Below are positions 38,339 through 63,473 of a stretch of 64,000 nt of DNA, one piece after another. Source of the stretch: Rhizobiaceae bacterium (lineage in GTDB: Bacteria; Pseudomonadota; Alphaproteobacteria; Rhizobiales; Rhizobiaceae); the NCBI GenBank assembly GCA_014238155.1, contig JABABQ010000014.1:62001-126000 (forward strand), written 5' to 3'. The notes under the pieces were generated by a model. The model did not search any database. It was not told the origin of the DNA and saw only the letters and a program-made list of their open reading frames with translations. Numbering within the stretch: position 1 is the stretch's first letter; each line of letters opens with the position of its first letter. Made by a program: the position numbers and the translations under genes.

Positions 38339-38352
38339 ATTGGTCGACCAAT
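38339..38352. promoter_or_regulatory. Operator palindrome ATTGGTCGACCAAT (FadR/UxuR-type GntR site)
   Basis: A perfect 14-base palindrome ending 17 bases before the ATG of the alcohol dehydrogenase gene. The consensus ATTGGT-NN-ACCAAT is shared by five other sites in the window and is the shape bound by UxuR/ExuR and other FadR-subfamily GntR regulators. A degenerate half-copy (ATTGGTCC) lies 30 bases upstream. It probably controls the plus-strand operon 38370-46510. Confidence 0.75.
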
Positions 38353-38369
38353 TGGAGTATCGACGCACC

Positions 38370-39566
38370 ATGAATGACCCTGCCCGCACCATGACAACTG
38401 CAAATACCGACTGGTCGGGTGTGAAAACGTCTCCCGACATGCCGGTTCCCGATCAGATGCGGGCATGGGTGCTGGGAGAGCCAGAAGAACTAACCCTTCA
38501 GGACAAGCCTGTTCCGGCACCGGGGAAAGCCGAAGCACTGGTGCGCATTGACGCGGTCGCCATCTGCGCAACCGACCTTGAAATACTGACCTACGGTACG
38601 CCTGCCCTGATCGAAGGAGGCGCACCGTTCAACAAGGGCTTTACCCCTGGTCACGAATATATGGGCACCATTGCGGCTCTCGGCCCTGGCGTTGACGAAT
38701 TTGAAATTGGTGACCGGGTAACGGTTGAAATCCATGCCGGTTGCGGACAATGCAAACGCTGTCGCATGGGGATGTACACATCATGCCACAATTATGGCCT
38801 CAACTACGGTGACCACGACAAGGGCCACCGCGCAAACGGCTTTACCACCGACGGTGGATTTGCCGAATATGCCGTCAACAACATCAATACGATGATCAAG
38901 GTTCCCGACTCCATGTCGGATGAGGAAGCCACACTGGTGGTGACCGCAGGTACTTCCATGTATGGGCTCACCGAACTCGGCGGACTTGTCGCCGGAGAGA
39001 GCGTGGTTGTCATTGGCCCGGGGCCAATCGGACTGCTTGCGGTTGCGGTTGCCAAGGCTTTGGGCGCATCACCGGTGATACTGGTCGGCACACGTGAAAA
39101 CCGAAATGCCATTGGCAGACAACTTGGCGCCGACGTTACAATCAATCCCAAAGACGAAGACCCTGTCGCACGGGTCATGGAACTTACTGGCAAAGGGGCA
39201 GATTATGTTGTCGACTGCGCCGGCAATGAAACCACCGTCAACCAGTCCGTTCACATGACCAATCGCGGTGGGCGCATCTGTCTGGCCGCATTTCCCAAAA
39301 CCGCTGTGGCATTCGATCTTGGCGCGTTGGCTGTCAACAATATCTATCTTTACGGCATTCGTGGAGAGGGCCGCTCTGCAACCCATCGCGCCATGGCTTT
39401 CATGGCCGAAAAGCGGTTTGACGCGCGGCTGGTCCACACTCACACATTTCCTATGGAAGACCTTAAAACCGCACTTCGTTACGCCAAGGAGCGGGTGGAT
39501 GACGCGATCAAGGTCGTGGTGTCAATGCGCCAGAACAGCAAGGCGGCCGAAGAGGCTGCTGAATGA
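38370..39566 (+). CDS. Zinc-dependent alcohol/polyol dehydrogenase (MDR family)
   Basis: A 398-residue medium-chain dehydrogenase. The catalytic zinc is bound by Cys in AICATD, His-Glu in GHEYMG, and a conserved acidic residue; the structural zinc by the cysteines of HAGCGQCKRCRMGMYTSC. NAD motif GPGPIGLLA. An earlier in-frame TTG at 38340 would place the start inside the operator palindrome, so I prefer ATG 38370 (GGAG at 38354-38357). It is the first gene of a block with a DHDPS-family enzyme and a TRAP transporter, so it likely oxidises the imported hydroxy compound. About 40 N-terminal residues precede the usual MDR start. Confidence 0.85.
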   Translation: MNDPARTMTTANTDWSGVKTSPDMPVPDQMRAWVLGEPEELTLQDKPVPAPGKAEALVRIDAVAICATDLEILTYGTPALIEGGAPFNKGFTPGHEYMGTIAALGPGVDEFEIGDRVTVEIHAGCGQCKRCRMGMYTSCHNYGLNYGDHDKGHRANGFTTDGGFAEYAVNNINTMIKVPDSMSDEEATLVVTAGTSMYGLTELGGLVAGESVVVIGPGPIGLLAVAVAKALGASPVILVGTRENRNAIGRQLGADVTINPKDEDPVARVMELTGKGADYVVDCAGNETTVNQSVHMTNRGGRICLAAFPKTAVAFDLGALAVNNIYLYGIRGEGRSATHRAMAFMAEKRFDARLVHTHTFPMEDLKTALRYAKERVDDAIKVVVSMRQNSKAAEEAAE

Positions 39567-39586
39567 GTCAAGAAAGAGAAACATAA

Positions 39587-40516
39587 ATGACCAAAGCAAG
39601 ACGCGGAATTTATGCCGCGGCCGTCTCGCCCTTCAATGAAGACGGCTCACTGAATGCGGATAAATCGATCGCTTACTGCAAGTATCTGTTGTCGCAGGGT
39701 GGTTGTGACGGTGTGGCGCCAACCGGAACCACCGGTGAAGGCTCATCTGTCCCGATGTCCAGTCGTCTGGAACTGCCCGGTGCGTTCGCCGATGCAAAGA
39801 TTGAAACAGACCGGGTAATTTTTGGAACAGGCACACCATCATCTGCCGATTGCGTGGCATTGAGCCGGGCCTGCCTGGACGCTGGCTATGCAAATGTTCT
39901 CGTACTGCCACCCTATTATTACAAAAACCCGTCCGATGACGGAATTTTCAGTCACTTCGCCAATCTGGTGGAAAAAATCGGCGACGACCGGTTGCGGATT
40001 TATCTCTATCATTTTCCGCAAATGTCTCAGGTGCCATTTTCAACTGATCTGGTGAAACGCCTCGTCGCTGCCTATGGACCGGTCATTGCCGGGCTGAAAG
40101 ACAGCAGCGGCGATTTCGAGCAATCACGGGGATTCGTTGAAGCCACAGGCGGTGTCGACAATGACTTCGATGTCTACCCGTCTTCAGAATCAATGTTGTG
40201 GGACGGCCTGTCGATTGGAACTGCTGGAGTAATATCGGGATCCACAAACGCCTTTGGCGCAAAAGCGCAGGCTGCCCTGCAGGCTCCTGAAGGACCCGCA
40301 CGCGATGCCGCAATGGATGCAGTGCGTGCTGCCCGCACCATGGCCGGAGATTTCCCGCTGATGTCTGCGATGAAAACACTCGAAGCATGGCGGACCGGGG
40401 ATGATGACTGGATGAGAATGGCGCCGCCACTTCTGCCCTTAAGTGAAGAACAAAAAGTCGCCCTTCGGTCGTCCGTGGAGGCACTTAACAACACGAATTT
40501 GCAAGCAAACGGTTGA
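39587..40516 (+). CDS. DHDPS/N-acetylneuraminate lyase-family aldolase or dehydratase
   Basis: A 309-residue class I aldolase-type TIM barrel. The substrate carboxylate loop is GTTGEGS, the proton-relay Tyr is in IYLYHFP and the Schiff-base Lys in AGLKDSSGD. Members of this superfamily cleave or dehydrate 2-keto acids (for example 2-keto-3-deoxy-sugar acids) and rarely are true dihydrodipicolinate synthases outside lysine operons. Location between a dehydrogenase and a TRAP transporter makes a catabolic 2-keto-acid lyase or dehydratase the best guess. Specificity unknown. Confidence 0.85.
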   Translation: MTKARRGIYAAAVSPFNEDGSLNADKSIAYCKYLLSQGGCDGVAPTGTTGEGSSVPMSSRLELPGAFADAKIETDRVIFGTGTPSSADCVALSRACLDAGYANVLVLPPYYYKNPSDDGIFSHFANLVEKIGDDRLRIYLYHFPQMSQVPFSTDLVKRLVAAYGPVIAGLKDSSGDFEQSRGFVEATGGVDNDFDVYPSSESMLWDGLSIGTAGVISGSTNAFGAKAQAALQAPEGPARDAAMDAVRAARTMAGDFPLMSAMKTLEAWRTGDDDWMRMAPPLLPLSEEQKVALRSSVEALNNTNLQANG

Positions 40517-40638
40517 ATCACACACAGGAGGTCACAGTACAACAATTAGAGATCCGGCTCGGCGATGCCGATAATTCCGGACAAGGAAACCAAGGAATAC
40601 AATCGATCAAAATTAACCAGTAAATTGGGAGACATATC

Positions 40639-41727
40639 ATGTCTGGAGTAAAAAATTTGGGATCTATGGCTGTTGGAACAGCTATGGTGTTGGCCGGATC
40701 ACTGGGGATAGCCTCCACTGCATCGGCGAAAGAAATTGTCATCCGCATCGGGTCGGGCCATCCACCGACCGTTGTTTATGCGGGTTTGATGAAAAATTAC
40801 TTTCAGCCCGAACTGAAAAAGGCGATCGAATCCCAAACTGATCACACCGTAAAGTTCATCGAAGGATACAGTGGTTCCATTACCAAGGTCTTCGATACCT
40901 TTGAAGGCATTCAGAACGGCGTCCTCGATATTGGTGGTTTCTGCTTCTGCTTTGAAGCTTCCAAGCTTCCGATGCACGCATTCCAGATCATGCTTCCCTT
41001 TGGCACCATGGATCCGGAACAAAGCGTGGCTGTTGCCAATAAAATTTACAAGCAGTTCCCGAGCCTTGAGAAAACCTTCCAGAAGTATAACCAGACCATG
41101 CTCGCGCGGATTGGTGATGGTGGCTACAACCTCGGCACAAACTTTGCTTGGAAGGAATTGTCCGATCTCAAGGGCCGCAAGATTCTCGGTGCCGGCCTCA
41201 ATCTGAACTGGATGGAGCAGGCCAACATCGGCATCATTCCGGTGACCGATGGACTGCCGGGTTGGTATCAGAAGATAAAAACCGGGCTTGCTGAAGGCGG
41301 AATCATGTTCCCCAGCGCCTGGGGACCCGTGTTCAAACTGCATGAAGTTGGAGAGTTTTATACAACTATAGGCTTCGGTTCCATTACCTGGCATGCCCTG
41401 AACGTCAACAACCGCTTCTGGGATCGTCTTCCACCCGAAGTTAAGCCAATTATGATGGAAGTTGCCGGACGATATTCAGTCCAGACCGGTGTGTTCAATA
41501 AAATCGGATACAAAAAGGATATGGATTGGCTGCGTAAAAATATCACTGTGAGCGATCTGCCGGCTTCCGTCCGCCTCGATTGGGCGAAGAGGTTGAAAGA
41601 TTGGCCACAGAAATACGCCGATGAACTTGAAGCCAAAGGTTACCCAGCCAAGGCGATCCTCAACGCGACCCTCGATGAAGCCGAAAAGGCCGGATACACG
41701 TGGCCGGTTCGTTACGTCATCAAATAA
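40639..41727 (+). CDS. dctP: TRAP transporter solute-binding protein (DctP family)
   Basis: A 362-residue periplasmic protein. Signal peptide 1-30 (cleavage after STASA). The DctP fold is shown by GYSGSITKVFDTFEGIQNG and by the ligand-clamp region GYNLGTNFAWKELSDLKGRKI, where a conserved Arg is at GRKI; the later DGLPGWYQKIKTGLAEGG is also typical. It delivers an organic acid to the permeases encoded next. It follows the DHDPS-family gene by about 120 bases and is itself followed by a 13-base hairpin. Confidence 0.9.
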   Translation: MSGVKNLGSMAVGTAMVLAGSLGIASTASAKEIVIRIGSGHPPTVVYAGLMKNYFQPELKKAIESQTDHTVKFIEGYSGSITKVFDTFEGIQNGVLDIGGFCFCFEASKLPMHAFQIMLPFGTMDPEQSVAVANKIYKQFPSLEKTFQKYNQTMLARIGDGGYNLGTNFAWKELSDLKGRKILGAGLNLNWMEQANIGIIPVTDGLPGWYQKIKTGLAEGGIMFPSAWGPVFKLHEVGEFYTTIGFGSITWHALNVNNRFWDRLPPEVKPIMMEVAGRYSVQTGVFNKIGYKKDMDWLRKNITVSDLPASVRLDWAKRLKDWPQKYADELEAKGYPAKAILNATLDEAEKAGYTWPVRYVIK

Positions 41728-41762
41728 ACCAGGCAGACTACGCATTGTAGTTCTTTCAAATG

Positions 41763-41802
41763 TTACCGGCTGAAACCGATTACCTTGGATTTCAGCCGGT
41801 AA
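41763..41802 (+). promoter_or_regulatory. Stem-loop after binding-protein gene
   Basis: A perfect 13-base inverted repeat (TTACCGGCTGAAA at 41763-41775 and its complement at 41790-41802) with a 14-base loop lies between the TRAP binding-protein gene and the small permease gene. The following TTATTCAAATTT is AT-rich but not a T run. Same placement as the hairpins after the other binding-protein genes. Confidence 0.7.
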
Positions 41803-41847
41803 TTATTCAAATTTCGATTTCAATTGACCGCCAAAAAAAGGATCAAA

Positions 41848-42348
41848 ATGTCGCTCATTACATTCAGTGATCGTTTGTCCAAGTTCTTGATGATCGCCGC
41901 CGCTACCTGGGCCTTTGGTCTTTCGTTATTGGTTATGGGGAACATCATAGGCCGGTCAGTTTTCGATTCTCCAATTTACGGCACTGCCGAAATCGTTGCC
42001 GCGTCGATTGTGATAATTGTATACCTGCAGGCTGGTTATGCCATTCGCAGCCGCTCCATGCTCAAGGCCGATTTTCTCGTTATTCGTTTGCCGGACAAGG
42101 TCCAGCGGATATTGCTGGCTATTGGTTATCTTCTGGGGGCGGCGTTCTTCCTGATGATTATCACCGGCGGATGGGCGGAAAGTGTGGCCTCATATGTCGA
42201 TGGTGAATTCGAGGGCGAAGGCGCCTTGCGGGTACCCTCATGGCCAGCGCGCTGGACCGTTTTGATCGGCAGCGCGTTGGCGATGATCAACTACCTGGTT
42301 ATGGCCTATATCGACGTATTTAGGCCGAATGAATTCGATTCCGATTAA
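41848..42348 (+). CDS. dctQ: TRAP transporter small permease (DctQ)
   Basis: A 166-residue membrane protein with four helices (around residues 15-38, 46-70, 88-112 and 130-150), typical of DctQ. The RSVFDSPIYGTAEI segment after the first helix is the usual signature. The ATG at 41848 is preceded by AAGGA; an in-frame TTG at 41824 is less likely. Confidence 0.88.
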   Translation: MSLITFSDRLSKFLMIAAATWAFGLSLLVMGNIIGRSVFDSPIYGTAEIVAASIVIIVYLQAGYAIRSRSMLKADFLVIRLPDKVQRILLAIGYLLGAAFFLMIITGGWAESVASYVDGEFEGEGALRVPSWPARWTVLIGSALAMINYLVMAYIDVFRPNEFDSD

Positions 42349-42402
42349 AAGACCGATACGCGCCACCATCAACTGATATTGGCAATAAGAGAGAATAACC
42401 CT

Positions 42403-43767
42403 TTGTTCGAAGTCAACACTGCCGTTTTGCTGATTGTTAGTCTGGTGGGCCTGGTGGCAATTGGTGTCCATATTGCCATCGCGCTGGGTATGACCAGTGC
42501 GCTTGGAATATTCCTGGTGACGGGTGCCGACGCCTACGCATTCGACACTGTTCAACGCATGTTGGCAGCGACCGCATATGAGGCAATTCGCGCCTACGTT
42601 TTTGCGGTCATTCCGCTGTTTATGCTGATGGGCGAATTTATCGGGAAATCCGGTGTTGTTACCGATGTTTATCGCGGCCTTAACAGGTTGCTGCGCCGAT
42701 TGCCCGGCCGGTTGGCAATTGCCACAATTACCGGCAATGCGCTGTTCTCATTCGTAACGGGTGTCAGTATTGCCTCTGCGGCCGCATTTTCACGCATCGC
42801 CTACCCGGAAATGAAACGATTTGGCTATCACAAGGGTTTTGCATTGGGCACCGTTGCAGGCTCAAGTTGCCTCGGCATGCTGATCCCCCCCTCGGTGCTG
42901 ATGATCGTTTGGGGCATTCTCACCGAACAATCCATTGGACAGATTTTTGCCGCCGGCATTTTTCCCGGCCTGTTATTGGCCTCCCTGTTTATTCTTTATG
43001 TATTGGGCATCGCGATATTGCGGCCGGCCACGGTGGGCATTGGACCGAACGCTGAGCAAATATCCTCCATTGATGACCCGGGCGAAGTTGAGGACGAAGT
43101 CTCAAACCTCCAGTTTTTGATCAGCCTGACAGGTATCATCGTTGTCATTGTCGCGGTTTTGGGAGGAATTTGGTTTGGCATATTCACGCCGACCGAGGGC
43201 GCCAGCGCGGGTGCACTAATCGGCTTGGCGCTGGGCATTATCAAGGGCATGCGTTTGCGTGACATAATCGACTCCATATTGCTGGTCGGGCGAACCTCGG
43301 CTCCGATCCTGCTGTTGTTGATCACCGCATCGCTCTATTCCAGGACCCTGGCTATGACCGGTCTGGCCAATGCCATTGAAGGCGTCTTTTTGGATTCCGG
43401 CATGGAACCCTGGATGATTATCAGCGTTATGGTTTTGATCTGGTTTGCGCTGGGAATGATTGTTGATTCAATTTCCATCATGTTGTTGACCGCAGCTATC
43501 TTTGCGCCGATTGCCGTCCAAATTGGATACGATCCGATTGCCTTTGCCATCATCGGCATTATCGCTATCGAGGCGGGATTGTTGACGCCCCCCTTCGGGC
43601 TGTTGGTTTATACTGTGAAGTCATCGATCCATGAAATCGAGCCGGACATGAGTGTCGTCCCGATATTCAAGAGCTCGACACCCTATTGGATAATCATGCT
43701 GATATGCATGATCTTGATCATTAATTTCCCGGAAATCGCAACCTATCTCCCAAGCCAATTGTTCTAG
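42403..43767 (+). CDS. dctM: TRAP transporter large permease (DctM)
   Basis: A 454-residue polytopic protein with about twelve helices. Family stretches are PLFMLMGEFIGKSGV, VSIASAAAFSRIAYPEM, GSSCLGMLIPPSVLMIVWG and FTPTEGASAGAL. The start is uncertain: TTG 42403 has AGAGAG upstream, and another in-frame TTG lies at 42379. It forms the sodium-driven channel with DctQ. This TRAP system is complete, whereas a second TRAP-type binding protein at 56008-56946 has no permease next to it. Confidence 0.9.
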   Translation: MFEVNTAVLLIVSLVGLVAIGVHIAIALGMTSALGIFLVTGADAYAFDTVQRMLAATAYEAIRAYVFAVIPLFMLMGEFIGKSGVVTDVYRGLNRLLRRLPGRLAIATITGNALFSFVTGVSIASAAAFSRIAYPEMKRFGYHKGFALGTVAGSSCLGMLIPPSVLMIVWGILTEQSIGQIFAAGIFPGLLLASLFILYVLGIAILRPATVGIGPNAEQISSIDDPGEVEDEVSNLQFLISLTGIIVVIVAVLGGIWFGIFTPTEGASAGALIGLALGIIKGMRLRDIIDSILLVGRTSAPILLLLITASLYSRTLAMTGLANAIEGVFLDSGMEPWMIISVMVLIWFALGMIVDSISIMLLTAAIFAPIAVQIGYDPIAFAIIGIIAIEAGLLTPPFGLLVYTVKSSIHEIEPDMSVVPIFKSSTPYWIIMLICMILIINFPEIATYLPSQLF

Positions 43768-43819
43768 GCCAGCGCCGATCGGCCTGAGGCGATAAACAAA
43801 CATAACAAGGATTGTCCCC

Positions 43820-44125
43820 ATGCCTGCTTACTGGATTGCACGCTCGCTGATCAATGAACCGGTAGCTTACAAGCGCTACACAGATCAGATTCCCACAATT
43901 ATCGCCAAATTTGGTGGTAAGGTTCTTGCCCGTGGAGGCAAATATCAGATCATGGAAGGACCTGAAAAATTCAAACGTTTTGTGGTGTTGGAATTTCCTG
44001 ATTTCGAGACCGGGGTCGCCTGTTTCACGTCCAAGGAATATGACGATGCAGCCCGTCACCGCCGCGAAAACGGTGCAGGAGAAGTTGAAACAGTCATTCT
44101 GGATTCCGGCGAATTCACTCAATAG
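43820..44125 (+). CDS. DUF1330-family small protein
   Basis: A 101-residue protein with a ferredoxin-like alpha/beta fold of the DUF1330 family: MPAYWIARSLINEP at the start, GGKVLARGGKYQIMEG in the middle and the FPDFETGVACFTSKEY segment. The conserved Tyr and Gly residues point to a small dimeric, possibly substrate-binding protein. AAGGA precedes the ATG. Its role is not established; it recurs in catabolic operons. Confidence 0.85.
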   Translation: MPAYWIARSLINEPVAYKRYTDQIPTIIAKFGGKVLARGGKYQIMEGPEKFKRFVVLEFPDFETGVACFTSKEYDDAARHRRENGAGEVETVILDSGEFTQ

Positions 44126-44142
44126 TCCAACAAGGCATTCAC

Positions 44143-45117
44143 ATGAAAATTAAACGCGTAATGATCCATAGTCAGGGTGTGCCTGAAGTGATGGTCCTGG
44201 AAGAAGCAGAACTTGCAGCGCCAGGTTCTGGTGAAGTTCAGGTTGAACAAACCGCAATTGGTGTCAACTACATGGACATTTATCAGCGATCCGGTGCCTA
44301 TGACATGTCGCTGCCCAGCCCACTGGGTCTTGAAGCAGCAGGCAACGTCGTGGCTGTCGGGTCGGATGTGAACGGGTTTGAAGTTGGGGACCGGGTTGCC
44401 TATGGGCCGGTATTGGGCGCCTACGCATCCCACCGAAATGTTCCGGCCGCCCGGCTGGTCCAGATTCCAGATGGTATATCTGATGGCCTCGCCGCCGCGG
44501 TTCTGATGAAGGGCACGACGGTCGAATATTTGCTGAACCGAACCTACAAGGTGAAGTCCGGTGAAAATGTCCTGTTCTGGGCAGCATCCGGCGGTGTCGG
44601 TCAGCTTGCCGGTCAATGGGGAGCTCACCTTGGAGCACGTATGATCGGGGTCACTTCAGGCGAAGACAATTGCAGCTCTATCCGCAAACTGGGCTATGCA
44701 GAGGCCATCGACCGAACCTGCGAGAATGTGGGCGATCGCGTGCTGGAACTGACGGATGGTGAGGGTGTCCCTGTTGTCTATGACAGTATCGGCGCCGCGA
44801 GTTTTGACTCGTCGATCAAATCGTTGGCAACCTACGGCATGCTGGTATCCTATGGCGCCACCACGGGAGAGGCACCACCGGTTCCTCCCGGCTTACTCCA
44901 ACACAGCGGTTCGCTTTATTTCACCAGACCGACACTGGCCGATTACATAAAACATCGAGCCGATCTCGAACATGCTGCCAATGAGGTGTTTCGACTGATA
45001 CTGGAAGGGGTTCTGAGCGTTAATATCAATCAGCGCTTGGCTCTGAGCGATGTTGTTGAAGCGCACCATGCTCTGGCGTCGGGAACAACCACCGGGTCGA
45101 CTGTGCTGATACCCTAG
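44143..45117 (+). CDS. Quinone oxidoreductase (zeta-crystallin type)
   Basis: A 324-residue zinc-free medium-chain reductase. It has no structural-zinc cysteine lobe; NADPH binding is marked by WAASGGVGQLAGQWGAHLGA, and the VNYMDIYQRSGAY segment is typical of QorA. Enzymes of this type reduce quinones or enones with NADPH. It lies 17 bases after the DUF1330 gene in the same operon. Confidence 0.9.
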   Translation: MKIKRVMIHSQGVPEVMVLEEAELAAPGSGEVQVEQTAIGVNYMDIYQRSGAYDMSLPSPLGLEAAGNVVAVGSDVNGFEVGDRVAYGPVLGAYASHRNVPAARLVQIPDGISDGLAAAVLMKGTTVEYLLNRTYKVKSGENVLFWAASGGVGQLAGQWGAHLGARMIGVTSGEDNCSSIRKLGYAEAIDRTCENVGDRVLELTDGEGVPVVYDSIGAASFDSSIKSLATYGMLVSYGATTGEAPPVPPGLLQHSGSLYFTRPTLADYIKHRADLEHAANEVFRLILEGVLSVNINQRLALSDVVEAHHALASGTTTGSTVLIP

Positions 45118-45133
45118 AAATGCGTTTTTGAAA

Positions 45134-48304: not shown

Positions 48305-48334
48305 GGTCAACTCCCTGATTTGCTTTGTTGGACT

Positions 48335-52885: not shown

Positions 52886-52916
52886 TTTCCCGGGGGGGAG
52901 GTTCCACCCCGGGAAA
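52886..52916 (-). promoter_or_regulatory. Stem-loop after binding-protein gene
   Basis: Arms TTTCCCGGGG (52886-52895) and CCCCGGGAAA (52907-52916) pair perfectly around an 11-base loop, 6 bases beyond the stop of the TTT binding-protein gene and before the racemase-like gene on the same strand. No T tract on the transcribed side; attenuator, partial terminator or stabiliser. Confidence 0.7.
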
Positions 52917-52922
52917 ACTGAT

Positions 52923-53891: not shown

Positions 53892-53969
53892 TCATCGTCT
53901 CCCTTGTTGCATCGATTATGTTGTTAGTCCGAGGCGCCGATGCGCTCGCGATCGAACCAAATATTTACG

Positions 53970-55451: not shown

Positions 55452-55486
55452 AGCGGGGTCCGATCACATCATGGGATGGCTTCACT

Positions 55487-56011
55487 TCACTCTCCTAACA
55501 AGCGTGCATAAATGATTTCGATGGTGTTGAGTTCGGGCAAAGACACTGCAAGAAGCCGGGTGGCAGCAAGATAAAGAGCGACCGGTCCAAGACCAGCAAC
55601 GCAAAAAATCTGCAGCACCGATCTGGTGCCCATCAACAGGGACATTGCCACCATCGCGATGGCTGAAGAAATGAGAAATCCAAACGGCGTCATCGTCAGC
55701 GCATAACCGATCATGATCGCAAAAAAGACCATGCCGCGCTGCCACTCGCTTTGTGCCAAACTTTCGCCGCCGCTGGCTGTTTCAGCACCACCTGCGCGCA
55801 TGACTAACAGCAAAATAGCGCACATGACTGCCAATGCAGCGATGATAATCATCGGGAAAAGGCTTGGCGCGATTGCCGTCAGGGACCGGCCGAACAAGAG
55901 TTTTGGTGGTTCAACAAGCGACCCGAGAAAGACCAGAGCCAGAGCCGAGACAATCAATAATACAACAACGGTAAGCATTTCAGGGGTCGCACGTCTTGAA
56001 TTTCCCGTCAT
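55487..56011 (-). CDS. TTT transporter small membrane subunit (TctB-like)
   Basis: A 174-residue protein with four or five predicted helices (about residues 12-30, 45-65, 92-130 and 134-155), TctB by topology and position. The ATG overlaps the stop of the TRAP-type binding-protein gene upstream (ATGA), so the two are co-translated. Confidence 0.82.
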   Translation of the reverse strand: MTGNSRRATPEMLTVVVLLIVSALALVFLGSLVEPPKLLFGRSLTAIAPSLFPMIIIAALAVMCAILLLVMRAGGAETASGGESLAQSEWQRGMVFFAIMIGYALTMTPFGFLISSAIAMVAMSLLMGTRSVLQIFCVAGLGPVALYLAATRLLAVSLPELNTIEIIYARLLGE

Positions 56012-56946
56012 GACGACACCCTTTCCAGATCGGCTTCAAACAGATCGATCAGGTCCTGACTGAACCGACCGCGGGTGGTGTCAACTTCATGTCTTGTTGC
56101 CTCAATCAGGCTTGCCCTTTCGGCATTTGAAAGATGAATCAGGGTCACACCTTCATCCTTCATCGCTGCAGAGCAGATATCATCGTCCTCTTCAGCAAAA
56201 CGTCGCTGAGCCTGCGTCGCTTCCTGCAGCGCAGAGGTAACGGCGGTCCACGCGTCATCTGACCAGCCATCAACCGCTGTTTGATTAAACAGAACCGGCG
56301 CCACCCCCAGCAGATGCCCTGTCAGGGTGACAGTTCGATGCGTATTGTGCAGGCCGAAATTGTAAATATTGGTCAACGGATTTTCCTGCGCATCCACCTT
56401 GCCTTGAGCGACGGCATCCGGCAGATCCCGCACATCAATTGCAACGGGCAGAAAACCCAAAGCCTTGAAAACTCTTTGATGATCGTCGCTGGCCAAGGTT
56501 CTGATCTTCATTCCTTCACAGTCTGCAGGAGATCGAAACGCCGTTGCTGCAGAACTAATATGGCGCAATCCGTTGTCCCAATATCCCATGACCTGGAACC
56601 CGGTCGCTGCCTTCACTTCTGCCGCCAGGCGCGTTCCCAAAGAACCGTCCAGCACGGCGTAGGCGCGGCGACGATCGGGCACGGCAAAATGTTGATCAAA
56701 CAACGCCAACTGAGGAACCCGGCTGGCAAGGTAACTGGATGAAAAATAGCAACCGTCAAGCTCGCCACTTTCGGTGGCCGACAATAGATCCGACGCCTTA
56801 CGCCCGCTTTCAACGATATTTTGGATGAAATCGACCTCGATTTTCCCCCCGGAAATCCGCGAAATCGCGTCGCAAAATACGCGAGCGCCGCGGGTATGAA
56901 CCGATTTATCGCCCTGGTAGCCACCAAACCTGATCTTCAAACCCAT
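56008..56946 (-). CDS. TRAP-type solute-binding protein (DctP family) without signal peptide
   Basis: A 312-residue DctP-family protein: KIRFGGYQGDKSVHTRGA at the start, GGKIEVDFIQN, DGCYFSSSYLASRVPQLA, the ligand-clamp region with Arg in GMKIRTLAS and VDAQENPLTNIYNFGLH. No signal peptide is visible; the mature-like strand starts at residue 3. No TRAP permease adjoins it; instead it is fused by overlap to the TTT genes downstream. Its ATG shares a base with the stop of a 17-codon upstream frame (56946-56999). It may be a cytoplasmic ligand-binding protein, or use a leader in an unusual way. Confidence 0.78.
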   Translation of the reverse strand: MGLKIRFGGYQGDKSVHTRGARVFCDAISRISGGKIEVDFIQNIVESGRKASDLLSATESGELDGCYFSSSYLASRVPQLALFDQHFAVPDRRRAYAVLDGSLGTRLAAEVKAATGFQVMGYWDNGLRHISSAATAFRSPADCEGMKIRTLASDDHQRVFKALGFLPVAIDVRDLPDAVAQGKVDAQENPLTNIYNFGLHNTHRTVTLTGHLLGVAPVLFNQTAVDGWSDDAWTAVTSALQEATQAQRRFAEEDDDICSAAMKDEGVTLIHLSNAERASLIEATRHEVDTTRGRFSQDLIDLFEADLERVSS

Positions 56947-56999
56947 CAAGCCCGCTCCCGCAACCGATCAGCAACCATGCGAGGTATCCCGCTTGCCAT
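56946..56999 (-). CDS. Possible leader peptide (17 residues) coupled to the TRAP-type gene
   Basis: A 17-residue frame (MASGIPRMVADRLRERA) begins at ATG 56999 with GGGAG six bases upstream and ends in TGATG, so its stop overlaps the next start by one base. Such an arrangement allows translational coupling. It could also be the leftover N-terminus of a longer gene. The peptide has no hydrophobic stretch, so it is not a signal peptide. Confidence 0.45.
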   Translation of the reverse strand: MASGIPRMVADRLRERA

Positions 57000-57039: not shown

Positions 57040-57053
57040 ATTGGTTGACCTTT
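57040..57053. promoter_or_regulatory. Degenerate operator ATTGGTTGACCTTT (FadR/UxuR-type GntR site)
   Basis: The left arm is perfect (ATTGGT) and the centre plus ACC of the right arm match; the last three bases do not. It lies 41 bases before the start of the possible leader frame and 94 before the TRAP-type gene, so it is well placed for control of the minus-strand TTT operon. Confidence 0.5.
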
Positions 57054-57167
57054 CGAAAACTTCAACCGGATACTCAAACCATTCAACAGAAAAACTTGGC
57101 AAAATGCAATATATAAAAGGCAAAAATGCATCAAAAACCCGATGATTCTACCACAAATTTTCGCTCG

Positions 57168-57181
57168 ATTGGTGGACCATT
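57168..57181. promoter_or_regulatory. Operator palindrome ATTGGTGGACCATT (FadR/UxuR-type GntR site)
   Basis: One mismatch to ATTGGT-NN-ACCAAT. It is 128 bases upstream of the degenerate copy at 57040 and 19 bases past the end of the LysR gene, in the promoter region of the TRAP-SBP/TTT operon. Two spaced copies would allow looping. Confidence 0.65.
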
Positions 57182-57199: not shown

Positions 57200-58132
57200 T
57201 CAATCAAGCCGGTTGAAATGCACCCTGCAAATCTCACAAGCGCGGCGAATTTCGTCACTCAATTGCTCGGTAAACAACCTGACGGCGGCAGATTCTGCCT
57301 GGATTGCAGGCTCAATCAACAAATAGTCCACCGTCATTTTGGGTTGAACAATGGGGTAGAGATGCATGTTGGGATCTTCCAGGTCCGGCACGCACAGACA
57401 GCCGGGAAGAATCGAACAAAAATTTCCCTGCTTGATGATGTCGAGAGTCGTCATCATGGAATCCATTTCCAGGATTGTATGACCGACCTGCGAAACGCTT
57501 TTCAGCACCTGATCAATCTTGGCCCGCCGCGCATTTCCTTGCCCGGGCAAAATCAAATTCAGAGCATCAATTTTTGCCAGATCAACACTCTTATCGACCC
57601 CCTGCAAGGGGCGGCGACTTGCCAGAATCTCCAGATCAGTATCCAGAAAGGTTGAGCGAAGACCATCGTGAACTGAACCGTCTGGCACCACGGCAATGTC
57701 CAGTTCACCCGCCAGCACCATCTGGGTGAGCATGGCGCTGTATCCTTCGGTGACGGTTACAACCACCAGCGGATTTGCCTGGGTATATTTGGCCATGACC
57801 GGCGCCAGTATCGACCGTGCAAAAGTTGGCATAATGCCAATCCGAACCTTGCCGGTCAGAACATTTTCATCCGGGGCAACGTCTTCGCTGAGCCGGCTGA
57901 CTTCGCGAAGAATATTGACCGCTCGATTATAAATCAATTCGCCCGCTCTGGTGGGGACGACACCTGTCGAGACCCTGTCAAACAAAGCCACACCAAGCCG
58001 GTTTTCCAGGTCGCGCAATTGAACACTCACCCCGGATTGGGTGGCATGAACCTTTCGCGCCGCCGCCGAAATCGAACGCTCCTCGTAGACGGCAACAAAA
58101 AACTTCAGATTGTTGAGCTTGACAGAATTCAT
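57200..58132 (-). CDS. LysR-family transcriptional regulator
   Basis: A 310-residue LysR-type regulator. N-terminal helix-turn-helix: FVAVYEERSISAAARKVHA and TQSGVSVQLRDLENRLG (residues 12-47); the C-terminal half is the inducer-binding domain (IGIMPTFARSILAPVM onward). The ATG overlaps the stop of the AEC permease gene (ATGA), so it is the last gene of the minus-strand operon 61487-57200 and is expressed with it. It may control that operon or the flanking TTT operon. Confidence 0.9.
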   Translation of the reverse strand: MNSVKLNNLKFFVAVYEERSISAAARKVHATQSGVSVQLRDLENRLGVALFDRVSTGVVPTRAGELIYNRAVNILREVSRLSEDVAPDENVLTGKVRIGIMPTFARSILAPVMAKYTQANPLVVVTVTEGYSAMLTQMVLAGELDIAVVPDGSVHDGLRSTFLDTDLEILASRRPLQGVDKSVDLAKIDALNLILPGQGNARRAKIDQVLKSVSQVGHTILEMDSMMTTLDIIKQGNFCSILPGCLCVPDLEDPNMHLYPIVQPKMTVDYLLIEPAIQAESAAVRLFTEQLSDEIRRACEICRVHFNRLD

Positions 58133-59049
58133 TGGACCGCCACCATAGACAATGCTGCATTTGCTGCAACGCTATCCCCGCTTAGCTGAAGTGCAGCCCA
58201 GACCAGGGCCGGCAGACAGAGAAAGGTCAAAATGGTTGAAACCACCACGGCTCCAGCTACCCTGTTTGGATCTTGCTGATATCTTTCAGCATAGACATAG
58301 GTGACGATCGCTGACGGCATGGTGGCCATGATGAACACTACTCCGGCGGCCATGCCGGTAAGATTCAGTAAATAAATAACGATAAATGCGGTGATGATTC
58401 CAATGGTCAATCGCGCCACTGCCAGCACCAGAGCAGGCAGCAGATCCGTTACCTTCAACGTCGCCAGTGACGTACCCAGCAGAATCAACATTGCCGGGAT
58501 CATCATATCTCCCAACATACCGGTGGTGATCACCACAACCGGCGGAACCTGAATGTCGGTCATCAGAACCAACAACACCAGCACCACTGAATAGAGCAGC
58601 GGTTGCCTCACCAACTCTCTTATGCGCACAGAACCGGCAGCAATTGAAAGCCCGATACTGTGCTGAACCAGTGCAATAACAATAAAATAAGCAACCCCCA
58701 TTTGTGTTCCCATTGCACCAAAAGTCAGCACCACCAGAGGCAGGCCCAGATTACCCGAATTGGGGAACATCAGACTGGGCAGAAAACTTTGCGCAGAACT
58801 GCCGATAAGTTTCAGCCCCACCCAGGCAATCAAGCCGGCGATGGCAAGTGATAAAACAGCTGCAAACGATAATTGGGAGACCATTGCACCATCAACCGTT
58901 GATGAAACATTGGCGTGAAACACCAGCGCCGGTGTGGCGACCAGGATGACCAGATTGCTCAGCGTTCTGGATTGCAGGCCGATCGACATTCTGCCCAAAA
59001 TAAACCCGATAAAGGTTATCAGCATGATTGGAACCAGAATGTTGAACAT
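58129..59049 (-). CDS. AEC-family permease
   Basis: An auxin-efflux-carrier-family permease of about 306 residues, ten helices in two inverted repeats. NSGNLGLPLVVLTFGAMG is the conserved discontinuous-helix motif of the first half and the MPSAIVTYVYAERYQQD ending of the second half is typical. Bacterial members carry malonate, malate or other organic acids. The start is unsure: ATG 59049, or TTG 59055 which has GGAGG seven bases upstream; a longer frame reaches 59103 and would overlap the OsmC gene. Confidence 0.85.
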   Translation of the reverse strand: MFNILVPIMLITFIGFILGRMSIGLQSRTLSNLVILVATPALVFHANVSSTVDGAMVSQLSFAAVLSLAIAGLIAWVGLKLIGSSAQSFLPSLMFPNSGNLGLPLVVLTFGAMGTQMGVAYFIVIALVQHSIGLSIAAGSVRIRELVRQPLLYSVVLVLLVLMTDIQVPPVVVITTGMLGDMMIPAMLILLGTSLATLKVTDLLPALVLAVARLTIGIITAFIVIYLLNLTGMAAGVVFIMATMPSAIVTYVYAERYQQDPNRVAGAVVVSTILTFLCLPALVWAALQLSGDSVAANAALSMVAVQ

Positions 59050-59080
59050 GGCGATCAATGCCGAGCCTCCAAAGACACAA

Positions 59081-59560
59081 TCAGCGACCAGACAAGGTCT
59101 CACCGTTCAGGGTCCAGCGCTCAATCACATTGGTTCCCGATTCCTGCAACATTTTGGAAACCGCACAATGGTCACGCAGTTTTTCAACAACCTGCATGAC
59201 CCCTTCGCGCGGTCCTTCATAGGTGGCATCTATCACCAGCGTAACTTCTGGAAAAGGAACATCGATGGGATTGATCAATCTGGTGCCGTGGCTGTCCATG
59301 GTGACCTGGATGTCTATATCCATCGAGGTGAACTCAACGCCATTTGCGACGGCCAGTTTGTTTGAAATGACGTGGGTACATCCGAGCAGGCCCATGAATA
59401 CATATTCGACAGGCATTGGGCCCTCATCGGTCCCGCCGCGCAGAAGTGGCTCATCAATGATGGCGCTTTTGCCGCGCGCGGTTGCAACCGATTGGGTCGA
59501 GGATTTTTGCCCCCCGGTGATGTTGAATTTCCAGATCGGCTTTTCTTTTATGACTACCAC
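59081..59560 (-). CDS. OsmC/Ohr-family protein
   Basis: A 159-residue OsmC-type protein with the two redox cysteines at Cys61 (MGLLGCTHV) and Cys132 (RDHCAVSKML). OsmC proteins reduce organic peroxides, but many in catabolic operons have other or unknown roles. Start GTG with GAGGA eight bases upstream. It lies between the hydrolase and AEC permease genes; a peroxide- or thiol-linked role alongside the luciferase-like monooxygenase is possible. Confidence 0.85.
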   Translation of the reverse strand: MVVIKEKPIWKFNITGGQKSSTQSVATARGKSAIIDEPLLRGGTDEGPMPVEYVFMGLLGCTHVISNKLAVANGVEFTSMDIDIQVTMDSHGTRLINPIDVPFPEVTLVIDATYEGPREGVMQVVEKLRDHCAVSKMLQESGTNVIERWTLNGETLSGR

Positions 59561-59583
59561 GAAAGGTCCTCGCTTGCATTTGG

Positions 59584-60396
59584 TCAGAGTGAGAGAAAGT
59601 TCCTGATTGCTGAATTAAAGGCATCAGGTTGCTCGATATTTGACAGGTGAGCGGCGTTTGGCAGAATTTTCAAACACGCCTGGGGTGTTCGGTCAGCCAT
59701 GTCCTGCATTACCGCAACCGGTGCAGCCATATCCGCCTCGCCAACAATATAGAGGGTTTTGCACTGCAGCGATGGAAGGCCTTCCAGCATGTCCAGATTT
59801 TGCAATGCACGGGCTGCACCTTCATAGCCGACAGTTGAAGTCGCGTTGAACATTGAGCGCACCGTGGCCAAGGTATCGGCGTTTTTGGTCGCCGCCATGA
59901 AGTCAGGCGTAAACCAGCGCTCAAGAGTTGGCTCGACCAAGCCGGCAATTCCACGCTGATTAAGTTTTGCGATATTGTCTTCCCACATCCCCCTGTAGGC
60001 ATCTGGCGCAGAAGCGCGAGCGTCACAACATACCAAACGACCTACCCGTTCCGGTGCGCACATGGCGAACGCCAAACCGGTCATTCCGCCAAGTGAAATA
60101 CCAATGAAATCCGCCCGCTCAATTTGCAAATGCTCAAAAAGCGCATGAACATCTTCTGTCAGGTGACCAAAATTGTAAGGTGCCGAGCCTGCCTGACTGT
60201 CACCATGACCGCGGGTATCATATCGCACCACGCGGTACTTGCTGGTGAGGTCACGGATCTGCGGATCCCAGATCCGCCGGTCGGTCGCCAATGAGTTTGA
60301 CATCATCAGCCACGGCGCACCTTGCGGGCCGTCAATCTGATAAGCGATCATGGTACCACCGCTGCCTGGTACCTGTCCGGCAATGGAAGCGCTCAC
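59584..60396 (-). CDS. Alpha/beta hydrolase (3-oxoadipate enol-lactonase-like)
   Basis: A 270-residue alpha/beta hydrolase. Nucleophile Ser101 in GISLGG; acid Asp in YIVGEADMAAP; base His in LPNAAHLSNIEQP. The TRGHGDS and HLTEDVHALFEHL segments resemble PcaD-type enol-lactonases, although closeness to PcaD does not prove that function. Its ATG overlaps the stop of the luciferase-like monooxygenase gene (ATGA), so it may act on the oxygenation product, e.g. hydrolysing a lactone or ester. Confidence 0.85.
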   Translation of the reverse strand: MSASIAGQVPGSGGTMIAYQIDGPQGAPWLMMSNSLATDRRIWDPQIRDLTSKYRVVRYDTRGHGDSQAGSAPYNFGHLTEDVHALFEHLQIERADFIGISLGGMTGLAFAMCAPERVGRLVCCDARASAPDAYRGMWEDNIAKLNQRGIAGLVEPTLERWFTPDFMAATKNADTLATVRSMFNATSTVGYEGAARALQNLDMLEGLPSLQCKTLYIVGEADMAAPVAVMQDMADRTPQACLKILPNAAHLSNIEQPDAFNSAIRNFLSL

Positions 60397-61487
60397 TCAG
60401 CGGATCCAATGGCCGCGTTAAGTTTGGGCATTACCTGTTCAGCCATCAAGATCATAGACTCGCGACCCAGATCGTAATCGGTCCAGTCATGACCGGCATA
60501 GACCAGGTTTCCAAAGGCGCCTGTGGTTTCACGGAATTCAAGCACCTGATCAGCCACGCTGGATGGATCGCCATGAATGACCAGCCGGTCCAGCACGTAA
60601 TCGAGAGTGACGTCTTCATCAGGCATTTCCTGATCTTCCTTAAACAGGTTCAACCTGCCACCCTTCGCCAGTTTGGTCAGCAAACTGTGATAGTACAGGA
60701 CGTAGGGGCTTCCGGGGTCGCGGGCATAGCGTTTTGCGGTTGCCTGATCTTTGGCAACACAGATATTTTTTGCCACCCGCCAGTTATCGGGATCAGCCGG
60801 TCGGCCACCCTGTTTACATCCTTCAACATAATTTGGCCAATGGGTCGCGACCCATTTGGGCAACAGGAAGTTGGCAGATATCGGCTCCCAACCGCGGGCC
60901 GCCATCGCTGTTACACCCTTGGAAAAAGGCGCGACAACCGTTCCCACAATCAATGGATGCGGTTCCTGATAGGGGCGCATGATGATGCCCTGGCCAATTT
61001 CAGTCATCATCGTGTTGCGGGTGGTGACTTTATAAAATTCACCTTCCAGATCATAAGGCGCATCGCCTTCCCATATTTTGAGCACCATATTGATGCATTC
61101 AACAAACATGGCATTGCGATCACGATCCAGATTCCCGAACACTTCTGCATCAGACATCAGGCCGCCGGGGGATATGCCAAAATTGAAGCGCCCTTCAAGC
61201 ATATGATCCAACATCGCGACTTCTGCGGCAACTCGTGCCGGATGGGAATTCGGCAGGTTGACCGTCCCTGTACCCAAAACGATGTTTTTTGTTTCGTAGG
61301 CCAAGCTGGCCAAAAACGCGACGGTCGAGGTGATGATCTCGGCCTGATCGGTTGTGTGTTCGCCGCAATAGGCTTCTGCATAACCCAGTTGATCGGCAAG
61401 AATGAACGCCTCCCGGTCTTCGCGTATGCTTTGCGAAAAGGGTTTCCCCAACGGATGAATCGGCATGGTGAAAAATGAGAGCTTCAC
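60393..61487 (-). CDS. Luciferase-like flavin-dependent monooxygenase
   Basis: A 364-residue LLM-class (bacterial luciferase-like) protein, which uses reduced FMN and oxygen to insert an oxygen atom. Family marks: FFTMPIHPLGKPF at the start, AYCGEHTTDQAEI, RVAAEVAMLDHMLEGRFNFGISPGG, and MRPYQEPHPLIVG. A gene for a flavin reductase, the usual partner, starts 220 bases away on the other strand. It begins a five-gene operon (monooxygenase, hydrolase, OsmC, AEC permease, LysR). Start GTG with AGGAAA upstream. The substrate is unknown; ester-forming (Baeyer-Villiger) or ring-opening action would fit the following hydrolase. Confidence 0.88.
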   Translation of the reverse strand: MKLSFFTMPIHPLGKPFSQSIREDREAFILADQLGYAEAYCGEHTTDQAEIITSTVAFLASLAYETKNIVLGTGTVNLPNSHPARVAAEVAMLDHMLEGRFNFGISPGGLMSDAEVFGNLDRDRNAMFVECINMVLKIWEGDAPYDLEGEFYKVTTRNTMMTEIGQGIIMRPYQEPHPLIVGTVVAPFSKGVTAMAARGWEPISANFLLPKWVATHWPNYVEGCKQGGRPADPDNWRVAKNICVAKDQATAKRYARDPGSPYVLYYHSLLTKLAKGGRLNLFKEDQEMPDEDVTLDYVLDRLVIHGDPSSVADQVLEFRETTGAFGNLVYAGHDWTDYDLGRESMILMAEQVMPKLNAAIGSAE

Positions 61488-61706
61488 GAAGTTTCCTGAA
61501 TTCAGTTACGCAAACATCACTTATGGGACGGCTATATCCAGTATGAATAATGATATTTACTAATACAGTCCATCGTATTTACTTTTACCTACTGAGCCGA
61601 CAGCCTATCATAAAAAACGATTGCCGCCATAAGAATACATAAGTTGTGGATGTGGCGACCAATGCATAAGGTCCGGGTTTATGTTTCGCCATGAGGATTT
61701 TTGCAT

Positions 61707-62219
61707 ATGAACGCTCATTCAGTACCTTTGGCCGAACCACCCGTTGATGCCCGGGCTTTGAGAGACGTTCTGGGACATTTTGCGACCGGCGTGACCGTGA
61801 TCACGACGATTGGTGACAACAATTCCGCGGTTGGTCTGACCGCCAATTCCTTCTCATCGGTGTCGCTGGACCCGCCCCTGGTCGCGTGGAGCCTGAGTTT
61901 GAACGCTCCCAGTCTTTCTGCCTTTCGCCAACATCCGGCCTTCGCAATCAACATATTGTGCGACCAGTCCAAGGAACTGGCTCTGAAATTTGCCCGATCA
62001 GCTCCTGACAAATTTGCCGATGTCGATTGGCACGCCGGCGTCGAGGGCGTCCCGGTGCTTCAGGCGGCAGCCGCAACAATAGAATGTCAAACAGAGACAC
62101 GCATTCCCACCGGCGATCACGAAATTTATCTCGGGCGCGTGATCAACTTCAAACAGACCGGCAAGCGACCGCTGGTATTTCACAAGGGCGAGTTCACCTC
62201 TTTGGGAGGATCGATTTAA
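61707..62219 (+). CDS. Flavin reductase
   Basis: A 170-residue flavin reductase (FMN/FAD) of the HpaC/NTA-monooxygenase component B type. DVLGHFATGVTVITTIG and VGLTANSFSSVSLDPPLVAWSL form the flavin site; the C-terminal HKGEFTSLGG is also typical. It supplies reduced flavin, most likely to the divergent luciferase-like monooxygenase. ATG 61707 has GAGGA nine bases upstream. Its stop overlaps the ATG of the next gene by one base. Confidence 0.9.
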   Translation: MNAHSVPLAEPPVDARALRDVLGHFATGVTVITTIGDNNSAVGLTANSFSSVSLDPPLVAWSLSLNAPSLSAFRQHPAFAINILCDQSKELALKFARSAPDKFADVDWHAGVEGVPVLQAAAATIECQTETRIPTGDHEIYLGRVINFKQTGKRPLVFHKGEFTSLGGSI

Positions 62220-63265
62220 TGCCGACTGCGAACCCCTTCACAGTGGTAATTGCCGGGTTTGGATGGTGGGGCAAACACATGGCCGTCCGGCTGAAAGGGC
62301 ACCAGAGTATTCGGGTTGCCGGCATTGTTGAACCCTTGGAAGCCAATCATGCCGCCATTGAAGAAATGGAATTGAAGGTCTGGACTGACATTGCCCAAAC
62401 ACTGACCCTGGACGAAGTTGACGGCATCATTTTGACAACCCCCAACCCGCTGCATGAGCAGCAGGTTATCCAATGTGCGCAGGCGGGAAAGCATGTGTTC
62501 TGCGAAAAGCCCCTTGGGCTTACTGCCGCCAGCGCCCGTCGTTCAGTAGCAGCATGCGAGAAAGCTGGCGTGCAATTGGGCATTGGCCATGAGCGACGAT
62601 TTGAACCAGCCATGGTTGCGCTCAAAGCAGACATTGAACGCAGCGCGCTCGGCACGATCATGCATGCCGAAGCCGCATTCAGCCACGACAAACTGACCCA
62701 TGTTCCCTCTGGCGACTGGCGCACCCTAAAGGCGGTCTCGCCAGCCGCCGGAATGACCGCCATGGGCATTCACCTGACGGATATGTTGATATCCTTTTTC
62801 GGCCCCGTGGAAACCGTGCAGGCGATGACGGCGGATCGGTCGCTGGGGTGGGAAACCGGTGACGTGGTGACGGTTCAACTGGGATTTGAAGCAGGCATGA
62901 CCGCGACACTGAGCGCCGTATTGCACACGCCACATTTCATTCGAATGCACGTATTCGGATCAAAAAGATGGGTTGAAGTTCTCAATGACAGCCACCCCGA
63001 CACACCCGATGGGATCGTGCGGGTTATCACCGCTGAAACCGGGCAACCTCTGGTTCACAAACAGTATGAATGGACCGACGCTGTGACAGAAAATCTGGAA
63101 GCATTTTGCGCTGCGGCCCAGGGATCGCAAGACTATGCGTTTACGCTGCAGGAAATGGTCCACAATATTGAAGTGCTGGAAGCCATCACCCTGTCGGCGG
63201 AAAAACGGCGAACCGTCGCAGTTCGAGAGTTGGCCGTCCCTCAAGACCTGCAGTTGGCGACCTGA
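62219..63265 (+). CDS. Gfo/Idh/MocA-family oxidoreductase
   Basis: A 348-residue NAD(P)-dependent dehydrogenase. Rossmann motif VVIAGFGWWGKHMAV; catalytic Lys in FCEKPLGL and the later TAMGIHLTDMLISF with the conserved His-Asp. The start is set by GGGAGGA (62204-62210) and by the TAATG overlap with the flavin reductase stop; a longer frame from 62027 runs inside that gene and is rejected. It follows the flavin reductase in one operon, suggesting redox chemistry on the same substrate. Confidence 0.9.
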   Translation: MPTANPFTVVIAGFGWWGKHMAVRLKGHQSIRVAGIVEPLEANHAAIEEMELKVWTDIAQTLTLDEVDGIILTTPNPLHEQQVIQCAQAGKHVFCEKPLGLTAASARRSVAACEKAGVQLGIGHERRFEPAMVALKADIERSALGTIMHAEAAFSHDKLTHVPSGDWRTLKAVSPAAGMTAMGIHLTDMLISFFGPVETVQAMTADRSLGWETGDVVTVQLGFEAGMTATLSAVLHTPHFIRMHVFGSKRWVEVLNDSHPDTPDGIVRVITAETGQPLVHKQYEWTDAVTENLEAFCAAAQGSQDYAFTLQEMVHNIEVLEAITLSAEKRRTVAVRELAVPQDLQLAT

Positions 63266-63322
63266 TTGTGGTTCAGTTACGGCTCAGTGACACAAGCCAC
63301 ATCGCCACCCCGGGGAATTACA

Positions 63323-63336
63323 ATTGGTGGACCAAT
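63323..63336. promoter_or_regulatory. Operator palindrome ATTGGTGGACCAAT (FadR/UxuR-type GntR site)
   Basis: A perfect match to ATTGGT-NN-ACCAAT, 185 bases before the start of the carboxymuconolactone-decarboxylase-family gene and 58 bases after the Gfo/Idh gene. Its partner site is at 63460. Confidence 0.72.
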
Positions 63337-63459
63337 AATTCTTCAACAAGTACTGCAATTTTCTCAAAAATGCTGGATTTATCACGGCATCTGTGCAGGA
63401 ATAAATCTGTGAAATTTGGAGAAACACCGCAATCTTCATCCAATCGTACCCGTGCTTTT

Positions 63460-63473
63460 ATTGGTTGACCAAT
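63460..63473. promoter_or_regulatory. Operator palindrome ATTGGTTGACCAAT (FadR/UxuR-type GntR site)
   Basis: A perfect match to the consensus, 48 bases before the TTG start of the carboxymuconolactone-decarboxylase-family gene, which is the usual place for a repressor site in or just after a promoter. It lies exactly 137 bases from its partner at 63323. Confidence 0.75.

Follow-up and report, generated by a model that had tools for sequence, protein, structure and literature searches.

Paired operators at a conserved spacing mark a likely GntR/FCD regulon of carboxylate uptake operons in a Rhizobiaceae genome

Introduction

Regulators of the FadR (FCD) subfamily of the GntR superfamily recognize operators built from TKGT/ACMA boxes around a 2- or 3-base centre and, in one survey, 29 of 100 double-site divergons keep a roughly constant inter-site distance, which is read there as cooperative control (PMC4494728). 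Direct precedent for looping comes from Atu1419 of Agrobacterium fabrum, a tetrameric FCD protein of the VanR group that controls its own gene, has two palindromes in each regulatory region (190 and 109 bp apart) and was seen by electron microscopy to form a loop between palindromes 190 bp apart (PMC7797058). Our searches of the regulator and looping literature returned no other FCD protein with a directly shown loop; for LldR of E. coli, a two-operator loop has reportedly been proposed, and PMC7804116 cites it as possible. Here we describe a 64,000-nucleotide stretch of a Rhizobiaceae bacterium (GCA_014238155.1, contig JABABQ010000014.1, positions 62,001 to 126,000; hereafter the window), in which predicted operators of an FCD-type GntR regulator stand in pairs before four operons, including the one headed by the regulator gene itself.

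Like Atu1419, the window regulator is an alphaproteobacterial FCD-type GntR, and two operators per regulated region recur at 4/4 window promoters and in 21 pairs across nine genomes. The two proteins match weakly (PDB 6z74, E=1.8e-4), and the Atu1419 operator ATGTATACAT is unlike the window motif and spaced differently in its two regions (PMC7797058). Because two-site, looping FCD regulators are already known from Atu1419, the system is a new case of two-operator control by an FCD regulator, and its geometry is unusually uniform. FadR-subfamily double-site regulons share the TKGT/ACMA palindrome with the window sites but are divergons (PMC4494728), whereas three of four window promoters are non-divergent, with a pair at each regulated promoter. 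The main new result is this paired-operator architecture, spaced at 12 to 13 DNA turns and kept in relatives.

Four operator pairs precede four predicted operons

A mismatch scan of the window found eight ATTGGTNNACCAAT-like sites forming four pairs, with spacings of 139 bp (38200/38339), 138 bp (50187/50325), 128 bp (57040/57168) and 137 bp (63323/63460; Table 1). Three copies are perfect (38339, 63323, 63460), three have one mismatch (57168; 38200, ATTGGTTCACCTAT; 50187, ATTGGTTTACCAAA) and two have two (50325, 57040). All are intergenic except 50187, whose final bases belong also to the gntR ATG; beyond the four pairs, no window sites with at most two mismatches each lie 10-400 bp apart. 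A first-pass annotation of this DNA had reported six of these sites, and all six lie where it put them, between genes. It had placed none in the first 38 kb, and indeed no site with at most one mismatch precedes 38200. Its grading stands for the three perfect copies, the other three being one with one mismatch and two with two. Having missed 38200 and 50187, each a single mismatch from the motif, it overlooked the pairing and took as the regulatory unit a single site rather than a pair of operators.

Chance does not readily produce this arrangement. In 300 dinucleotide shuffles of the window, exact copies averaged 0.007 and places with up to one mismatch 0.23, where the real sequence has three and six; pairs (spacing 100-170 bp, at most three summed mismatches) averaged 0.003 and never exceeded one per shuffle, where the real sequence has four. 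Across the 4.8-Mb genome, 29 places have at most one mismatch, six of them within this 25-kb stretch; at two mismatches there are 332, compared with 115 for the motif read backwards, and 332 is little above expectation from the window shuffle mean of 3.66 per 64 kb. Because two-mismatch places occur near chance frequency, single weak sites mean little, and the evidence rests on the pairs and their conservation. An exact search of the whole genome for TGGTNNACC and GGTNNACCA 117-147 bp apart returned five places, namely the four window pairs and one beside another FCD gene (C7), while the reversed-pattern control returned two.

Each pair precedes one operon (4/4), and 21 genes lie in the four predicted operons R1-R4, which were inferred from gene strand and order. 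The upstream neighbour is on the same strand at R2, R3 and R4, with no divergent gene, so both operators there serve one operon; R1 has a divergent GST gene. The downstream operator ends 17 bp before the ATG of the zinc-dependent dehydrogenase gene (ZnADH) of R1, overlaps the gntR ATG at R2, and lies 90 bp before the assigned start of DctP in R3 and 47 bp before that of the CMD gene in R4. This CMD-family gene had been listed as a regulon member in its own right; it heads a second TTT operon (L030). In the operon behind 57040/57168, a DctP gene comes first and TctBAC after it.

Pairs and spacings are kept in relatives

Each of eight relatives with an orthologous gntR has the cluster, whole or in part, and one or more pairs, giving nine genomes in all (GntR 53-100% identity) with 21 tabulated pairs spaced at 117-146 bp. 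In the nearest relative, a metagenome-assembled genome (MAG) titled Hyphomicrobiales (G583, L033) with a 99% identical GntR and the same cluster, spacings are 138, 138, 128 and 135 bp. When the four intergenic regions were aligned, 98/98 operator positions were identical between G583 and the window, against 638/916 in the remaining intergenic DNA (Fisher p 4e-15), a count that leaves out the R2 start-codon operator, which reads alike in both.

A MAG titled Rhodobacteraceae (G584, L034; GntR 75% identical) has three pairs, at 127, 139 and 136 bp. Searching 295 genomes of Rhodobacteraceae yielded seven gntR orthologues including G584 (54-74% identity in that search), and a search of 394 genomes on the Rhodobacteraceae side gave the identical seven. 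The other six loci, read over 18-40 kb, all contain the cluster in rearranged form (G829 and G717 only in part within the DNA read), with spacings of 127, 139 and 146 bp in G829 (the last on another contig), 117 in G795, 125 and 134 in G797, 141 in G717, 126 and 129 in G673, and 142 in G735. In G584, G829 and G797 the genes of R4 and R3 are joined in one run with one pair ahead of it, and where gntR and ZnADH are divergent (G797, G717, G673, G735), one pair is common to both. Pairs therefore mostly accompany a transcription unit and not each gene; exceptions are TctBAC in G795 and in G735. Alternative pairings left unused were 114 bp at R4 of G584 (a better-matching site; 127 was taken), 96 in G829, 112 in G797, 200 in G735, 157 in G795 (second site inside the gntR frame), 140 (twice) and 150 in G583, 125 in L114 and 137 in L111 (7755/7892, weak sites).

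ZnADH relatives provided a control. Among 15 matches in 14 of the 295 genomes, the seven at 82-88% identity, in gntR-bearing genomes, all have a pair (7/7), whereas the eight at 73-75% — one a second copy in G673 and seven in genomes without a gntR match — have no site (0/8; up to two mismatches, over 1500 bp). It is thus the cluster with the regulator, and not the ZnADH family, that the sites accompany. The two same-genus genomes within a 199-genome sample had no match to this gntR at 1e-30, and plasmid records held only GntR relatives at 42-47% identity (10 records); since same-genus genomes lack a match and orthologues are scattered, the cluster may move between lineages. Records assigned to two orders retain the uniform pair spacing as their spacers drift, and the natural variants at 117-146 bp offer material for studying loop regulation in the GntR family.

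The regulator and its operators

Both Pfam domains of the regulator score above cut-off (PF00392, the GntR winged helix-turn-helix (wHTH), 54.2 bits against 27, 1.2e-14; PF07729, FCD, 82.6 bits against 24.3, 4e-23), placing it in the FCD (FadR) subfamily of the GntR superfamily, as first annotated. Among the nine GntR orthologues, the wHTH stretches LPxER, SR..LR and VGxGT are nearly invariant, presumably with DNA-contact roles as in FadR, as are certain aspartate and histidine positions, which we take to be of the kind that holds the FCD metal. A monomer structure model was too poor for use (mean predicted local distance difference test score, pLDDT, 61.4). Of the NCBIfam models, LldR (91.8 bits, cut-off 311) and NanR (90.8 bits) come nearest, both far under cut-off; the protein is no orthologue of LldR, nor of UxuR (77.0 bits, cut-off 442) or ExuR (57.5 bits, cut-off 396), and the UxuR gene set differs from that of the window regulon.

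The 42 tabulated sites, picked by their likeness to this motif, have a nearly invariant GGT..ACC around a 2-base centre and fit the FadR-subfamily TKGT/ACMA operator rule. The first-pass annotation had equated the operator with that of UxuR/ExuR-type proteins; the 2-base centre is shared with E. coli UxuR, whereas ExuR and LldR sites have a 3-base centre (PMC4494728). At gntR itself, the operator overlaps the start codon as GGTNNACCAATG in 7/9 genomes, the exceptions being G795 and G735 (whose gntR start is uncertain), and autoregulation is likely. We strongly infer that the window GntR is the protein binding the predicted operators, and the earlier proposal that the four blocks form one regulon appears well supported, because the sites are conserved in relatives.

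A proposed looping mechanism and its alternatives

We favour as probable, from operator geometry and precedent, a mechanism of repression in which, at each promoter, the FCD-GntR bridges a pair of operators. GntR would bind each palindrome as a dimer and occupy two operators 128-139 bp apart at each of the four promoters; the dimers would then join, holding the intervening DNA, probably with the promoter, in a loop that keeps transcription low; at gntR itself the downstream operator overlaps the start codon. Once a carboxylate, imported or produced within the pathway, occupied the FCD domain, the loop would open, and the dehydrogenases would be switched on along with four carboxylate uptake systems. 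Most spacings fall into two groups roughly one turn apart, 125-129 and 134-142 bp, the two others being 117 and 146, and this narrow band argues that both sites are held together, as 117-146 bp is kept over nine genomes while spacer sequence drifts. Looping itself appears likely. The pairs, with their spacing, conservation and linkage to this gntR, are observed directly; the loop, repression as opposed to activation, the promoter's position and a carboxylate effector are all read from geometry and precedent.

Several observations weigh against this mechanism. Helical phasing is suggestive only: over 20 spacings (the 146-bp G829 pair standing outside the test) R=0.55 and Rayleigh p is about 0.0025, but the spacings are not independent, and with repeats removed, against a uniform null, the null fraction is 0.020 for 14 distinct values and 0.045 for 16 class-and-value rows (R=0.41-0.55), with the 141-142 bp spacings about half a turn off phase. 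A sigma-70-like scan placed no promoter between the operators in the four regions, its only sense-strand match (38189-38216, 9/12) overlapping the R1 upstream operator. At the thresholds used, no pair was seen for TctBAC in G795 or G735. Among more distant FCD homologues (38-47% identity), 0/37 have an upstream pair at up to three summed mismatches (39 homologous loci, two dropped for lack of the LPxER landmark; locus-less matches left out), and a general pair rule for all FCD regulators was rejected on that count; weaker pairs occur at 168-169 bp in L050 and L068 (4-5 summed mismatches of 12 positions each) and at 175 bp in L049. Two sites do not prove a loop, either, given that a library of E. 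coli promoters gave no sign of looping-type repression for LldR (PMC7804116).

The absence of a placed promoter would suit two independent operators without a loop: the upstream dimer might, for example, block or activate one promoter, and its downstream counterpart might serve as a roadblock or act on a second tandem promoter. In the survey cited above, 71 of 100 FadR-subfamily double-site divergons behave as separate sites (PMC4494728), and in divergent arrangements each site adjoins one gene. Yet independent sites need no set distance, whereas 117-146 bp recurs in 21 pairs across nine genomes with diverging spacers, and only one of the four window promoters has a divergent partner; we consider this reading unlikely. 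Rather unlikely too, although it overlaps with bridging repression and does not exclude it, is an activating or dual GntR, which would repress by looping when ligand-free and, once ligand is bound, activate from the upstream operator, a dual mode reportedly proposed for LldR. The roughly equal conservation of upstream and downstream operators and the proximity, far under cut-off, to the LldR and NanR models agree with it, but no positional sign of an activator site appears beside a -35 box.

That another protein reads the sites seems very improbable. The genome has 12 FCD genes, and of the 11 others a 39% identical paralogue (C42; L032:9305-9454, G000 C42:17305-17454) has very similar upstream sites of its own, ATTGTTTGACCAAT, ATTGGTCAAACAAT and AATGGTTCACCAAT, the last lying 136 and 117 bp from the other two and overlapping the gene's own ATG, so that cross-talk is possible. 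The pairs nonetheless accompany this gntR and its cluster in nine genomes with several gene arrangements, and ZnADH relatives outside the cluster lack them. A blind palindrome-pair scan of the FCD genes was passed by C42 (136, 117 bp), C7 (139 bp) and C29 (185 bp, an unrelated palindrome); the window gntR failed it, its upstream site being too degenerate for that scan. The C7 pair, two TGGTATACCA palindromes of a related motif 139 bp apart upstream of that gene (L134:1501-1651, G000 C7:4985-5133), is not kept, three close orthologues having the proximal site only, a further point against bridging. Across 199 genomes, TGGTNNACC pairs gave no general signal: among the matches listed, 66 genomes had one, pattern and reversed control both gave mostly 0 to 2 per genome, and several matches were one recurring (rRNA-like) sequence. 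Divergent from the C42 paralogue are genes for an FAA-hydrolase-family protein and for an NMT1-type ABC system.

In 13/21 spacers a sense-strand TGGT lies 20-30 bp before the downstream operator, one of them at 25 bp and the other 12 at 20-21 or 29-30 bp, against a mean of 1.37 and a maximum of 6 in 2000 mononucleotide shuffle trials. TGGT is missing from the four gntR-only promoters, the two R4 promoters, R1 of G795 and R4/R3 of G584, in which it is 42 bp ahead of the chosen site and 29 ahead of the alternative one. We treat this third half-site as a lead, found post hoc among orthologues that are not independent. IHF-assisted bending, scanned for with the IHF consensus, was not supported: spacers are A+T-rich (mean 0.61 against 0.47 for the window), but IHF-like matches with one mismatch occur in 5/21 spacers against a shuffle mean of 3.84. 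A bolder proposal, which we put forward tentatively and hold to be doubtful, is that target promoters throughout this uncharacterised FCD-GntR clade (at least 53% identity, perhaps including the C42 paralogue) require a pair of operators some 12-13 turns apart, that pathway promoters add a third half-operator, and that the start-codon operator makes autorepression different in kind.

Gene content and possible substrate

The cluster spans about 31 kb and appears to serve acid uptake and breakdown under a GntR-family regulator (Table 1). Its regulon includes four carboxylate uptake systems (TRAP, two TTT, DASS), which together with FCD regulation suggest a carboxylic acid as substrate; tying 21 genes to one switch offers a direct route to that compound.

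Table 1. Predicted operators, operons and conserved neighbours (window positions unless a locus is named)
Feature	Position	Strand	Basis or remark
R1 upstream operator, ATTGGTTCACCTAT	38200-38213	.	mismatch scan; same letters in G583 (L112:7873)
R1 downstream operator, ATTGGTCGACCAAT	38339-38352	.	same letters in G583
R2 downstream operator	50187-50200	.	overlaps gntR start codon (ACCAATG)
R2 upstream operator	50325-50338	.	same letters in G583
R3 downstream operator (gene side)	57040-57053	.	mismatch scan, alignment with G583
R3 upstream operator	57168-57181	.	mismatch scan, alignment with G583
R4 upstream operator, ATTGGTGGACCAAT	63323-63336	.	mismatch scan, alignment with G583
R4 downstream operator, ATTGGTTGACCAAT	63460-63473	.	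alignment with G583
Possible third half-site ATTGGT	38309-38314	+	30 bp before R1 downstream operator; post hoc
Possible third half-site AATGGT	57078-57083	-	30 bp before R3 downstream operator; post hoc
Operon R1	38370-46510	+	Pfam/NCBIfam; synteny
R1 ZnADH	38370-39566	+	Pfam/NCBIfam
R1 DHDPS-like	39587-40516	+	Pfam/NCBIfam
R1 DctP	40639-41727	+	Pfam/NCBIfam
R1 DctQ	41824-42348	+	Pfam/NCBIfam
R1 DctM	42379-43767	+	Pfam/NCBIfam
R1 QOR (NADPH:quinone reductase-like)	44143-45117	+	Pfam/NCBIfam
R1 DASS	45128-46510	+	Pfam/NCBIfam
R2 gntR, GntR wHTH and FCD regulator, 225 aa	49511-50188	-	Pfam
R2 remainder behind gntR	46530-49423	-	Pfam/NCBIfam; synteny
R2 Gfo/Idh/MocA	48335-49423	-	Pfam/NCBIfam
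R2 two beta-hydroxyacid dehydrogenases	47414-48310, 46530-47417	-	Pfam/NCBIfam
Operon R3	52099-56949	-	Pfam; synteny
R3 DctP	56008-56949	-	Pfam
R3 TctB	55487-56011	-	Pfam
R3 TctA	53970-55451	-	Pfam
R3 TctC	52923-53891	-	Pfam
R3 Asp/Glu racemase-superfamily (arylmalonate decarboxylase-like) protein	52099-52848	-	Pfam
R4 first gene, CMD/peroxidase-related	63521-64000	+	domain searches, synteny
R4 past window end: TctC', TctB', TctA', Gfo/Idh	L030:5521-10591	+	domain searches, synteny
GST, divergent from R1	37434-38072	-	conserved neighbour; Pfam/NCBIfam; synteny
Cupin (-), Ldh_2 dehydrogenase (+)	50398-51929		conserved members, no own pair; Pfam, synteny
LysR, AEC carrier, OsmC, enol-lactonase-like hydrolase, luciferase-like monooxygenase	within 57200-63265	-	conserved, no own pair
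Flavin reductase, Gfo/Idh	within 57200-63265	+	conserved members, no own pair

Sequence searches of the cluster enzymes against Pfam, NCBIfam and PDB returned family-level names only, and a literature search on the gene set found no publication joining four of its five terms. A luciferase-like monooxygenase, a flavin reductase and an enol-lactonase-like hydrolase lie at 59584-62219, conserved with the cluster and without GntR pairs; the monooxygenase is closest in PDB, by sequence, to 3,6-diketocamphane monooxygenase (1.2e-21), and the trio hints at a Baeyer-Villiger ring-opening and lactonase route, although these genes have no operator pair. A TRAP-type solute-binding gene, DctP, heads the R3 TTT operon and lies directly before TctB in 6/8 relatives, a position compatible with a possible mixed transporter or orphan receptor. 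Downstream of the cluster, L030:12248-15093 encodes a beta/gamma-crystallin domain protein and, nearby, an adenylate cyclase-like TPR protein.

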